A stretch of 64,000 nucleotides of DNA from Laetiporus sulphureus 93-53 (lineage: Eukaryota > Basidiomycota > Agaricomycetes > Polyporales > Laetiporaceae), in the NCBI RefSeq assembly GCF_001632365.1, contig NW_024468525.1, positions 210,335-274,334 on the forward strand, read 5' to 3'. This document shows positions 51,583 through 58,557 of the stretch, piece by piece. Made by a program: the position numbers and the translations under genes. The notes below the pieces were generated by a model that was given only the letters and a program-made list of their open reading frames with translations, searched no databases and was not told the DNA's origin. Position 1 is the stretch's first letter. Every line of letters begins with the position of its first letter.

Positions 51583-54500
51583 CTATGGAGGCCGTGGCGG
51601 TCGTGGCTGTTCCGTGATTGATGATGCTCGTTGTTGCTTTCGTCGCTCGTCCGCGATTGCGAGCATGCTCTGCAAGCTCTTTTCAAGCACAGGTTTCGTG
51701 AGAACGCTGCGACATGCCAACCGAATAAGCAATCAAAGCTTGTAGGAGAAGAAAGCCGAGCACATACTGATCAGCCCCAGCCTCGAGGTATTCTTGCTGG
51801 TCAGAGAGCAGTGCGTTACCTAGACGACGAAGCGCATCAAGAATTGCAATGGACGCAAACGCATGAAACTACGTGCCAGTAACACCAACGACAAAGTCAC
51901 GCCTACCCATCTCTCGTAATCGCCCGACCAAGTCCAAACCAGACAGAACCGGCATCTGGTTATCGAGGAATACCACCGAGTACCGATACTCGTCCCCTGA
52001 TGGCGGCTCGGCATCTATTGATAGGCCAGTGCTGCCGGTGTCTTCGGAGGACGGCGTTGCGTGCTGTCCGTTCTGCTCGGTTCCCAGAATCATCTCCAGC
52101 GCTATCTCCCCGTTCTCCGCAGTTGCCACCTTGCAGCCGATGCGTGTGAGCATCCGCGACATCAGCAGGCGCGTGAGAGGGTCATCGTCTACCACGAGGA
52201 CCTTGAGAGGAGCCTCCTGCTCGGCTGAAGAGCCTGCCGCGCCAGCTCCGGTAAACGATGCTGCAGATGATGGCGCTGGCGACGGCGGAGGATTAAGGGA
52301 AGATGCCTGCGGTCCTAGCAGCTGTGATAAACGCGGGCGAGTAGTCGCCGACGAACTATCTTTGCTCAAGAGGGGCGGTTCCAAAGCTGTCGGCGTTGTG
52401 ATGTCCCCGACAATAGCATGAGTCCCCGTGGACGGATCGCCAATGGTTCGTGTGAGTACAGGAGAGCGTTCGCCGCGCTTCGTGGAGATCTCGACCAATC
52501 CGCCTACGAGACTGCATCAGGCTGCCTCACATGACTTCCCAAATCGTACATGCTCACCTTGCTCCATGATACTATGGAGCGCAGAGGACGAGCGAGACCC
52601 CTGAGACTGAGCTTGCAGCGCAGCATGGAGCTCGGGGTGATCTGGTAATATATCGGCTTGTGTGATACAACTTGGAGGCATCGTTCTGGTCGCGCTCGAT
52701 GGGGTGCCGAAAGCATCAGCGTGCAGTTCCGCCGGCATCATAAGCGCCGGTATGGCTTTGATTCCCACTCCAAGAGCTACATATATGCGTGATCAATCAT
52801 CGATAATATACCATCGAGCCGAAGCTACTCACGCAATTCGACCCAGAAGGTGGACCCTTGGCCAACCTTGGACTTCACGCCCAGTCTGCCGCCGGTAAGC
52901 TTGACGATCTGGCGGACGAGAGCCAAACCAAGTCCCGTGCCTTTGCCGCCTTTTGCGAAACGTCGAATGTCAGGATCTGTAATGTGACGTCAAACAGTAC
53001 TGAGCTGCGTGCCTTGCAATCTGCCCTGCTCCGTCTGGTTGAAAGCGCCTGGGAAATCAAGTGTCAACGCCACCCGTCAGGCACTGTGTCTGACACAACT
53101 TACTGAAAAGCTTGCTCTGGACCATGTCTTTCGGCCGTATGCCGTAACCCGTGTCAGACACCTCGATTCGCACGACAATCCATTCTAGAGAGGGTGGCTT
53201 GGAATAGACGTTATTATGCTGCGTGAGATGCGTAGCCGACAACCGGTGGGGAATTGGTGGAGATTGTCCTTCTTTATATTTCTTGCCTGCCCAGCCGCGG
53301 TTAGACTTTCGACACAAGGGAATACACTAATATCTACCTTCCCACTGAGCAGACTCAGGCGGCAGAGAGGTCATTGGACGCCCGCTTTCTTCGCTCGGCC
53401 GTCTGCCAATGTCATCCAAACTCGCATTGTCTTCCGGTGACTCCATTTGCGGCAGGATCAACCGTGTCCGGATCGTGAGCTTTCCTCCGGCCGGAGTGAA
53501 CTTGCAAGCGTTACTGAACACGATTGCAAACCATTCTGATTCAGCGTCTGCTACCTCGCATGGCAACTATTACATACCTGGCGAGGTTGGTAATGATTTG
53601 TCGGAGACGCGTCTCGTCTCCAACTACGAAACCATCTTCATCCGGTTGTTCCCGTATGCGCTTATCGATGACGGCCTGGCTCTCTCCTAGAGCGTCATAT
53701 AAGGCTCTGCGTGCAACCTGAGGAAGAGATCGATGCGCGTTCAGCGGCATAGCTAGGGGCGAATGATGGATCATAAATGAAGTGCCCTTACATCATCGAC
53801 ATTCTTGTCAAGTTCAGTAACAAACTCCAGGCCGCGAGCATCAGTGGCCAATTGCAGAGGAACAAACATAGATCGCATGACTTGGTGGAACGAATACGGC
53901 TGCCGCACCCACTTCAGATACACACAAAATCGGCGTGTGCGAGAACTCACTTTCAGAACAAACTCAAAACGCCCACTGTCCATGCGGTTGCTATATTCTT
54001 GTCAGTGCGCGGTGCTTACGGGGAAAGATGGCTACTCACAAGTCGAGCACATCGTTCAGAACTGGACAAACCAGTTAGCGGGGAAAACCGTATGTGAAGC
54101 AGGCAGCCGACCTTTGGACATCATGCTCAGGCTGCCCTCCAGCGCGTTGAACTCGATATCTTGCGATCTTGCAATCGAGCCGTTCGCTTCCATATTCTGC
54201 ACAGCCAACACTGCCGACGAAGCGTAAGTAAAAATCGTACTCAATCTAACAAGACAACCTACACGCCGTATTTAGTGGAACTCGGACCTGTGCAATCACA
54301 AACATCAATAAGCAACGGTACCAAGAAGAGCCTAAAAAGTCACTTATCATGGAATACATAACTTTCAATCAAATTTGTCAGATAAGGGAAGAGACAGCTC
54401 AGTTGGAGAACTTACGAGGTGAGCCGACGCTTCGAGTCAGCCGCTTTACGCTCGTTGACTTGTGCCTTCTGGGTAGCTCTAAATTGGATCTTGAGCTGAT

Positions 54501-56094
54501 CGCGGAGCGTGTACAGGCGCCGCTCTGCCTAATTACTCCGTCAACAAGAATAATCCATCGCAAATGAGCGCGAATGCTCACGTTCTCCCGCGTGTAATGA
54601 ATGTAGAGCAAGAAACTTTGGAATAGCAAGAAATTGATCAGATCTATCAGAATGTCAGAATGGCGGCGCCAGGGGCCCGGAGGACCGGAACATGATACAC
54701 TTACTCCGGATAAAACTTGGATGATACGGGAGAGTCAAGGAACAAGCACTAGGCGAAGATTATCAGCGTTACGGCCGCCGAGCTAATAATGGACGTACAT
54801 GATGAAAAATATGAAAGCGCAGGTTGCAGCAGGGATGCGGTTTAATTTAAGACCAAACAATCCAACGGTTTGGAGAGCGGACGTGTAGCTGTATATTGTG
54901 AGTGATCTGTACGACCGCTAAAGGCTGAGATACTCACTAGAAGAGTGTCAAAAAGTCCTTGTTTCCTTTATTAAGGAGCGCCGGTGAGCCATAATAGCCG
55001 ACAATATACCTGTGGAGAGGCGAGATATCTTAGCTCGTAGTCCATCTGCGAGGCGCAACCTCTGCTTACATCAAGATGATCTGGTATATAGCCCACATCC
55101 AGGTTGCAAAAGATAACCAGATTTGATAGAAGATCTCCCGGTCTCGAGGGAAGTCCCACATGACAAATGCCAGTACTGGGAAAGTAATAGCGGGCGAGAC
55201 CTAAGGCGACAACTTTCGTCACACGAACGTCAAGTATGAGGAAAATCAATTTACCCCATAATAGAAGATCTTGTCTGCTAGGGTGATCGGCTTTTGGAGC
55301 TGGAGAAATCCAATAGCCAAGACCCAGTTGACAATGAGGAACGCCGAAGACCAGAAAGCTAGGTTCTGAAAGCAAGCTATATAATGCTAAGCGCATATAA
55401 ATTCGTTACATTAGCGTACCTTTCGAAGGAACCAATTTTCCTTGATATAATGCATCTCTGCCTTCTCATTCTCGAAATGATTGATGAAAAAGTCATGAAT
55501 GACTGGCCACACACGATAGCGCAAGAACAGGAGGGGTTGAATCGTCCAGAAACCGGTAGCTTGCAGAGCGAGACTGTCTCTGTCGGTGTTCGTGCCGCCG
55601 AGCTGGTTGCTCGATTTCTCCGCCGGTGCACCGCCATGCTCGGAGTGTGTCATAGAAGAGCTCTTGACCTCATCCGACCACTCGCGGTCCACAACCACCT
55701 CATCTACCACCTCATCGTCCGTATCCCCCTGTGTCTCCAGATGCCTCAAGTACCCATGGCGGTAGCTGTCTCCGCTATCATCATGTTCCAGGGCGGACTC
55801 CGACGTAGAAGGCGCGGTGCCGTTGCCTATCCTCCGTTTGAACTGTGCCCAATGCACGCGAAGGCCGCCATTCACCCGTGCATTTTTCCTATTTTTACTT
55901 CGCCGGCCCAATGACGGGGAGGGTTGGGTGACGGGGGTGGGGAGGAGGGGCTGGACGGTGGCATTTGAATTGACAGGAGCGGTGTTCACGGCGCCCGTGT
56001 CCTTCTCCGCGCTGGACCTGCCAATGTTGGGCAGGGGGACCTCGTCTCTGCCGTCAGCGGTGGTGGCCAGGGATCCGCGAGAATGAAAGAGCAT
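51583..56094 (-). CDS. Membrane-bound hybrid histidine kinase with C-terminal receiver domain
   Basis: The preferred start is [15 protein letters not shown] at 56094. The frame is open to an ATG at 56364, but that part looks non-coding. The N-terminal 220 residues are Ser/Asp-rich, followed by several hydrophobic segments ([33 protein letters not shown]) forming a membrane sensor. A coiled linker ([20 protein letters not shown]) leads to the H-box [20 protein letters not shown]. The N-box is [15 protein letters not shown] and the G-boxes are [12 protein letters not shown] and [16 protein letters not shown]. The receiver has [20 protein letters not shown], phospho-acceptor Asp in [11 protein letters not shown], and TKPV, and the protein ends PRPPRPP before a TAG at 51583-51585. 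Such kinases phosphorylate themselves on His and pass phosphate to their receiver, then to an Ypd1-type carrier. Three introns are non-canonical (54290-54347, 52950-53012, 51820-51876). Confidence 0.88.
51820..51876 (-). other. Candidate GC-AG intron in the receiver domain
   Basis: The donor reads ACTG/GCACGT and the acceptor GTCTAG on the minus strand. Splicing yields [20 protein letters not shown], which matches the conserved receiver sequence. The nearby GTAG donor would create an immediate stop. Confidence 0.6.
52950..53012 (-). other. Candidate GC-AG intron before the G2 box of the histidine kinase
   Basis: The donor reads CAAG/GCACGC and the acceptor CAAAAG on the minus strand. Splicing yields [13 protein letters not shown], the family consensus. 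A GT donor 14 bases further on would insert extra residues (TQLS). A CTGAC branch site lies about 20 bases before the acceptor. Confidence 0.6.
54290..54347 (-). other. Candidate AT-AC intron in the histidine kinase H-box
   Basis: On the minus strand the exon ends with TTCCATG, the intron begins ATAAGTGAC and ends GATTGCAC, and the next exon begins AGGTCCGAG. Splicing gives F-H-E-V-R-V-P-L-N-T, the exact H-box. No GT-AG choice at this site keeps that peptide. ATAAGT is the known U2-type AT-AC donor. Length (58) matches neighbouring introns, and TTGAT is a possible branch site. Confidence 0.72.
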
Positions 56095-57446: not shown

Positions 57447-58557
57447 ATGTCTTCTAGCGATACTTCACCTATAGAGATTACCGTGACACATCGGGGCGTT
57501 GCACACCGCCTCTCACTTCTGCCGGATGATACTATGACTGTCCTACAAGCTCGTCTTGAAGAACTCACATCAGTACCCCCTTCCCTTCAGAAGCTGCTTT
57601 ACAAGGGAAAGAAAGCCAACATTAAGGACGATGTTACCCTCACGCAGGCCGGTCTGAAGAACGGGATGAAAGTGCAGATGCTCGGGACCACTTCGGAGGA
57701 GTTGGGCAGCCTGCGGGCTGTGGAAGACGAGCGTGCAAGGAAAGAGCGCATCATGCGAGAAAGAGCTAAGAAAGCACCCGTAAAGGTACGCCAAATATAT
57801 TCATATAACATCTGTGGCGTTTATACTGAACAAATTGTCCGATTGCAGGTCCGCTCCACCGGCTCGTCATCCTCATCAGCCTTAAACTACAGATTCCACC
57901 GCATAGAACCCCTCGCGCATCTCCCGGAGCCACCCACTGCTACCGCCTTCCTCACGCGCCTCGCAAATGACCCTGCCATCCTACACGTCATGCAGAAGCA
58001 TCAGTTCTCCGTGGGCGTCCTGACCGAGCTCGCGCCACATGAGCAGCCTGGCTTGCTCGGCCTCAACGTAAATGCTGGACAGGCGATCAAGTTGAGGATA
58101 CGCACGGATCGCTACGACGGATTCCGGCTCTACAAGGACGTGCGGAGGGTGCTCTGCCACGAACTCACGCACAACGTGTGGGGAGATCATGATAATAACG
58201 TACGTGCCATCTCTTATATTCTGACCCATCTCCTTCTGACACGCTTTGAAGTTCAAGGAGATGAACTCGATGCTGAACCGAGAAGTAGTCGAATTCGAGC
58301 GCTCGATGGCAGAAGGCACGCATCGCTTCATCGAAGGTGGCGTATATCAGCCCTCTTCCGAGCTCGAGCTTGAGGCGGAAACGTATTTACTGTCAGAGGG
58401 CCCTCAGGTGCTAGGAGGGTCTGTGTCTGGAGGGGTGGCGGACGAGTCTCGGGAGGAGAGACGGAGACGGATGTTAGAAGCAACAATGAACAGGCTACGC
58501 AAACAGGAGGAAGAACTGGAGCACCAGTGTGGGACTGCAGGTCAGTCCAGGACGTGA
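57447..58557 (+). CDS. Ubiquitin-like plus WLM-domain metalloprotease (Wss1/SPRTN-related)
   Basis: Three exons (57447-57785, 57849-58199, 58252-58557) give 331 residues. The start MSSSDTSPIEITVTHRG is preferred over an in-frame ATG at 57348 because the ubiquitin-like fold begins right after it. Residues 10-85 form the ubiquitin-like domain (LQKLLYKGKKANIKDDVTLT). The WLM domain spans about 130-270 and holds the zinc motif HELTHNVWGDHD near residue 217 (HExxH plus a downstream His). A charged C-terminal helix follows (EERRRRMLEATMNRLRKQEE). WLM proteins are SprT-like metallopeptidases. Wss1 clears DNA-protein crosslinks with SUMO and Cdc48, and the ubiquitin-like version is typical of fungi and plants. 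Activity in crosslink repair is inferred from the family. It sits just upstream of a DNA polymerase delta subunit, which may be chance. Confidence 0.85.

Follow-up and report, generated by a model that had tools for sequence, protein, structure and literature searches.

An AT-AC intron directly after the catalytic histidine of a hybrid histidine kinase gene in Laetiporus sulphureus is probably of U2 type and old

A hybrid histidine kinase gene of Laetiporus sulphureus 93-53 (contig NW_024468525.1 of an assembly whose 124 contigs total 38.6 Mb) raises the question of how the codons of its phospho-accepting H-box are joined, and by which spliceosome. The gene is encoded on the minus strand of a stretch of 64,000 nucleotides (positions 210,335 to 274,334 of the contig; referred to here as the window), from an ATG at 56094 to a stop codon ending at 51583. 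A hand-built model with 22 introns (19 GT-AG, 2 GC-AG, and 1 AT-AC) gave an intact reading frame of 1093 amino acids that was identical at 1088 of 1088 modelled residues to the deposited protein LAESUDRAFT_742984 (P0001 in our homologue lists), which also agrees with a length of 51 nt for the intron at 53950. The layout is an N-terminal region that appears transmembrane by eye only, followed by HisKA, HATPase_c, and Response_reg. Pfam matches above the cut-off were obtained for PF00512 (HisKA, residues 427-493), PF02518 (HATPase_c), and PF00072 (receiver), so that the protein has the HisKA domain with its histidine, the HATPase_c domain, and the receiver domain by which a hybrid histidine kinase is recognized.

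The AT-AC intron is in phase 1 and splits the Glu codon directly after the catalytic His. On the minus strand the junction reads TTAT GTA TTC CAT G/ATAAGTGAC...GTGATTGCAC/AG GTC CGA GTT CCA. This had been proposed in an earlier annotation made from the letters alone (the original prediction), in which a segment of 58 bases running from ATAAGT to GCAC was removed from the Glu codon, and both the letters and the hand model confirmed it. The removed segment can also be placed one base further along (TA...CA) without altering the mRNA; of the two, AT-AC is the class already known. Retention of the intron gives YVFHDK*, with translation predicted to stop directly after the His, and use of the AG two bases beyond the AC as acceptor shifts the frame.

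Splice paths were enumerated from the fixed upstream exon start at 54528 to the residues VQNMEA, with introns of 36 to 130 nt, at most three introns, and at most one GC donor. Among the GT-AG and GC-AG paths, 454 were open in frame and 104 of these retained PLNTA, and in none of the 454 did VFH stand upstream of PLNTA. Excision of 54347-54290, with its AT-AC ends, restored the conserved H-box in frame, as in the deposited protein. AT-AC is thus the only splice found that preserves the H-box, in agreement with the original prediction.

Related kinases were collected in three protein searches. The best 120 of 1613 matches to the kinase protein (P0001 and 119 others) were combined with the best 120 of 251 matches to an H-D-K query covering the H-box region; a third search with the full read-through protein returned 7 proteins, all already present, and the combined set was 175 proteins. 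Within the best 120 of 1613, the H-box was intact in 83 proteins (P0001 included) and not intact in 37, comprising 7 that read through into the intron, 13 with the form TSYVRVPLN, 15 that were otherwise broken, and 2 without the region. The corresponding numbers for the 175 proteins were 128 intact, 16 read-through, 13 TSYVRVPLN, 16 otherwise broken, and 2 without the region.

The positions at which these models break were compared in the alignment of the 120, in which a junction was counted as gapped if at least 2 gap positions fell within 11 residues of it. Gaps were found at the AT-AC junction in 35 of the 119 homologues and at the other side of the adjoining 14-nt exon in 32. Leaving aside these two junctions flanking the 14-nt exon, nine other junctions with a mean identity of at least 0.84 were gapped in 0 to 3 of 119, as were three with identities of 0.59 to 0.80, and seven N-terminal junctions with identities of 0.32 to 0.73 were gapped in 5 to 14. 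The junction at 53337, in a fast-evolving region (identity, 0.04), was gapped in 115 and is uninformative. The gene models thus break down selectively at the 14-nt exon and the AT-AC intron, a pattern expected where gene finders do not consider the splice site. The 14-nt exon alone could be overlooked, yet this would not create read-throughs. As an observation on annotation, 37 of 119 hybrid kinase models are without an intact H-box, an error that is recurrent and apparently stems from the AT-AC intron and the microexon; HisKA-based counts of fungal histidine kinases can therefore miss or misclassify them.

The read-through models carry information on the donor itself. In all 16, YVF was followed by H-D, because a boundary of G/AT (or G/AC) requires D. 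The sequence CATG/ATAAGT further predicts H-D-K and then a residue that is codable from T, and 11 models fit, with F, Y, C, or S at that position. They come from Fibroporia, Trametes (three), Hypsizygus, Artomyces, Sanghuangporus (two), Tetrapyrgos, and Mycena (two). Look-up placed Fibroporia in the Polyporales, Hypsizygus in the Agaricales, Artomyces in the Russulales, Sanghuangporus in the Hymenochaetales, and Leucogyrophana, a source of one of the remaining models, in the Boletales; the orders of Trametes, Tetrapyrgos, Mycena, and Termitomyces are assumed. The H-D-K read-throughs span the Polyporales, Agaricales, Russulales, and Hymenochaetales, and 6 of them, together with 1 H-D-E model, were among the best 120 of 1613. 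H-D-E was found in two models (Termitomyces and Leucogyrophana) and fits ATGAGT; H-D-N, H-D-M, and H-D-I were found in one model each. The H-D-E and H-D-M read-throughs (models P0105, P0122, and P0130) point to variants of the donor, ATGAGT in Termitomyces and Leucogyrophana and ATATGT in Mycena capillaripes.

These misread models indicate that the same AT-AC intron is probably present across four or more orders of mushroom-forming fungi, bearing out the earlier suggestion of a conserved oddity. At the acceptor, the residue before Q in Q[VI]R[VI]PLN allowed a codon ending in A in 13 of 13 cases, as an AC/AG boundary needs. The probability of this by chance was ~0.016 under an assumed pyrimidine-rich composition, with Q itself biased since TAG is a stop codon, and the test lends weak support to that boundary. 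In a separate attempt to find the relatives' DNA, a pattern scan of viral contigs gave 3 matches, which were read as chance. Near the H-boxes of two further histidine kinases of the same genome, L021 (~3612) and L022 (~3030), no second AT-AC case was found, because the intron starts there look canonical (GTGAGC and GTTCGT, respectively); they also lie at different positions.

Eighteen transcript-like sequences were available (sources lgn or jgi only; contigs of 2.9-7.1 kb with a frame of ~900-1100 amino acids), 11 from the best 120 of 1613 and 7 from the list obtained with the H-box-region query. Because the gene has some 20 introns, such frames point to an origin in spliced RNA. The H-box was intact in all 18, which suggests that members of the family normally produce the H-box-bearing kinase; these sequences do not establish AT-AC use in each member.

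The donor ATAAGT is U2-like (A at +4, G at +5, and T at +6) and is consistent with the 11 H-D-K read-throughs. A YTRAY motif was found in 15 of the 22 kinase introns, in many at 11-17 nt from the end, and in the AT-AC intron the A of TTGAT lies 15 nt from the end, a distance similar to that in several neighbouring introns. A search of the genome for small nuclear RNAs (snRNAs) gave 4 locations for U2 and 2 for U6.

These features suggest that the intron is of U2 type, and our preferred reading, to which we give a probability of roughly 0.9, is that it is an old U2-type AT-AC intron, ancestral to several Agaricomycete orders and probably trapped. The ordinary U2 spliceosome would remove it, with U1 and U6 recognizing the donor (A)TAAGT, which otherwise fits the consensus, U2 recognizing the TTGAT branch point, and the initial A and final C standing in for the usual G-G contact. 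Such an A-C contact can replace the G-G contact at intron ends, and the AC would therefore be joined rather than the AG two bases downstream. The intron would already have been present in the ancestor of these orders. The intron has probably persisted because it is trapped: if one end alone changed (to GT-AC or AT-AG), splicing would be expected to suffer or the frame to shift, in a domain for which the His is indispensable. A trapped intron is the simplest account.

Several points weigh against this reading. The junction is known here from genomic letters and a deposited protein model. Conservation is judged from misread protein models rather than from the relatives' DNA; the H-D-K query enriches its own list (best 120 of 251) for H-D-K models; the H-D-N, H-D-M, and H-D-I models (one each) and the two H-D-E models fit ATAAGT imperfectly; and the 128 intact models among the 175 do not show which splice sites were used. 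Some of the 37 non-intact models, such as P0046, P0065, and P0084, lack more than the AT-AC junction. With 7 of 22 introns lacking a YTRAY motif, the branch point is a guess, and 14 control genomes gave no match for any of the six snRNA families, U2 and U6 included.

Persistence of a U12-type AT-AC intron in this mushroom is very improbable, even though the ends are AT-AC. Compared with the U12 donor ATATCCTT, 3 of 8 positions matched, with mismatches at positions 4-8, and the donor rule RTATCCTT is not followed (a rule also given in PMC2846911). The best match to the U12 branch site, TTGCTTATT, was weak (6 of 9) and has its A 19 nt from the intron end, so that the intron lacks both the donor and the branch-site consensus. 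No U11, U12, U4atac, or U6atac was found in the genome in a search without a positive control, in which scoring covered 39-48 of 644-1773 first-look candidates. The original prediction took most dikaryotic fungi to lack the U12 machinery, and PMC10639083 agrees, describing minor introns as completely absent from Dikarya. Basidiomycota are likewise named as without minor introns in PMC2846911, which mentions a possible remnant U4atac in Phakopsora, and PMC7072748 reports that many fungi have a U12 spliceosome, with its RNA genes found only in Cutaneotrichosporon oleaginosum.

An assembly error or a fresh mutation, by which a GT donor was lost or altered by 1-2 bases in a misread gene or decaying pseudogene, would explain the letters if an ancestral CATGAG/GTAAGT had lost GG, and the gene does have two further non-GT donors. 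GC-AG introns, however, make up 1.85% of introns in Ganoderma lingzhi (PMC11590231), the remainder of the 1093-residue frame is intact, and a local error, a small deletion of a GT donor as raised in the original prediction included, is very unlikely because independent genomes from several orders imply the same CATG/ATAAG reading. It is just as hard to accept that the main isoform is the canonically spliced one without VFHE, the family being pseudokinases and the AT-AC form minor: the VFHE-less form occurs in 13 of 175 models, against an intact H-box in 128 of 175 and in every transcript-like sequence. A different possibility, which we consider unlikely, is that the weak ancestral AT-AC intron was kept as a gate because how efficiently it is spliced determines how much active kinase is made; only non-canonical splicing would restore the His, and the state of the spliceosome would set signalling output. 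Retention would end the protein after the His (HDK*), and the in-frame canonical alternative 54357-54288 would remove VFHE to leave a kinase-dead receptor, a form matching the 13 TSYVRVPLN models. An Arabidopsis reporter sets a U2-type AT-AC intron against a GT-AG intron, and the amounts change with mutations in smu1, cwc16a, and prp4ka (PMC5473141, PMC6283158); because splicing factors can shift this competition, the idea of a gate can be tested. Yet none of the 18 transcript-like sequences lacks the H-box, the alternative leaves a 4-nt exon here (exon lengths 113, 4, and 25), its donor GTATTC is weak with no G at +5, and gene-prediction errors could well account for the 13 models. Such an alternative also arises almost automatically from Val codons starting with GT and the Glu codon GAG. 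A regulatory role for the AT-AC intron is possible.

Table 1. Features of the kinase locus, in window coordinates
Feature	Position	Strand	Basis
Hybrid histidine kinase gene	51583..56094	-	Hand model equal to P0001 LAESUDRAFT_742984 across 1088/1088 modelled residues
AT-AC intron, 58 nt, ATAAGT...TTGCAC	54290..54347	-	Sequence, hand model, path enumeration, conservation
14-nt microexon TTATGTATTCCATG: last base of S codon, Y-V-F-H, first base of Glu codon	54348..54361	-	Sequence, hand model
CAT codon, phospho-accepting His	54349..54351	-	Sequence; HisKA match
27-nt microexon AGGTCCGAGTTCCACTAAATACGGCGT: (E)VRVPLNTA and one further base	54263..54289	-	Sequence, hand model
Canonical upstream intron GTAAGT...TTGAAAG, between S and YVF	54362..54415	-	Hand model
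Probable branch-point A in TTGAT, 15 nt before end of AT-AC intron	54305	-	YTRAY scan (inference)
Possible competing canonical intron GTATTC...GCACAG, 70 nt	54288..54357	-	Path enumeration; homologue models
GC-AG intron GCACGC...CAAAAG	52950..53012	-	Hand model; deposited protein concurs
GC-AG intron GCACGT...GTCTAG	51820..51876	-	Hand model; deposited protein concurs

Near the kinase, a gene on the plus strand at 57448-58557 has a ubiquitin-like start and a HELTHN metalloprotease-like motif; we take it to be WLM/Wss1-like.

U2-type AT-AC introns are already known, and it is the conservation and the catalytic position of this one that appear new in the literature searched. That search, without most subscription journals and supplements, gave no report of the kinase AT-AC intron, its conservation, or its catalytic position. 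The locus would offer a fixed, apparently old test case of how AT-AC ends are handled by the major spliceosome where minor introns are reported to be absent from the clade, and the trapped-intron idea becomes testable across many sequenced genomes.

Among the closest known cases are those of Ganoderma lingzhi and Coriolopsis trogii, which we take to be Polyporales, as is the polypore L. sulphureus. Ganoderma lingzhi has 13 AT-AC introns with transcript support and manual curation, one of them by Sanger sequencing (PMC11590231), and in Coriolopsis trogii AT-AC introns, again with transcript support and manual curation, amount to 0.0235% (PMC13395996). As in the kinase family, an original gene model was interrupted through an unrecognized AT-AC intron (PMC11590231, PMC13395996). 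These cases differ in being counts or in concerning another gene (zf-C4pol), with no conservation across orders described in the available parts of the two papers (PMC11590231, PMC13395996). For the zf-C4pol gene, two places were located in the L. sulphureus genome, the first scoring above the cut-off and the second below it.

Table 2 of PMC2846911 lists non-U12 AT-AC introns in several lineages, including 2 in the basidiomycete Phakopsora pachyrhizi, and at least 42 AT-AC introns are suspected to be real in C. elegans (PMC3033335). Like the kinase intron, these have AT-AC ends without U12 machinery and are presumably U2 spliced, but they are counts based on expressed sequence tags from other organisms, and no conserved single case is described in the portions available. 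In the Arabidopsis reporter, which encodes green fluorescent protein, only AT-AC splicing gives a working protein in competition with a GT-AG choice, as may hold here; it differs in being a transgene with the GT-AG intron nested inside the AT-AC intron and 3' sites 3 nt apart (PMC5473141, PMC6283158). A parallel to the proposed trap is found in animal sodium channel genes, such as intron 21 of human SCN4A, in which U2-type AT-AC introns occur and a trap has been proposed (PMC2831892). The kinase intron shares with them the AT-AC ends and a G at +5, and it is presumed to resemble them in needing the major spliceosome and in being trapped. It differs in lying in an unrelated gene and lineage, in a clade reported to be without minor introns, and at a catalytic residue.
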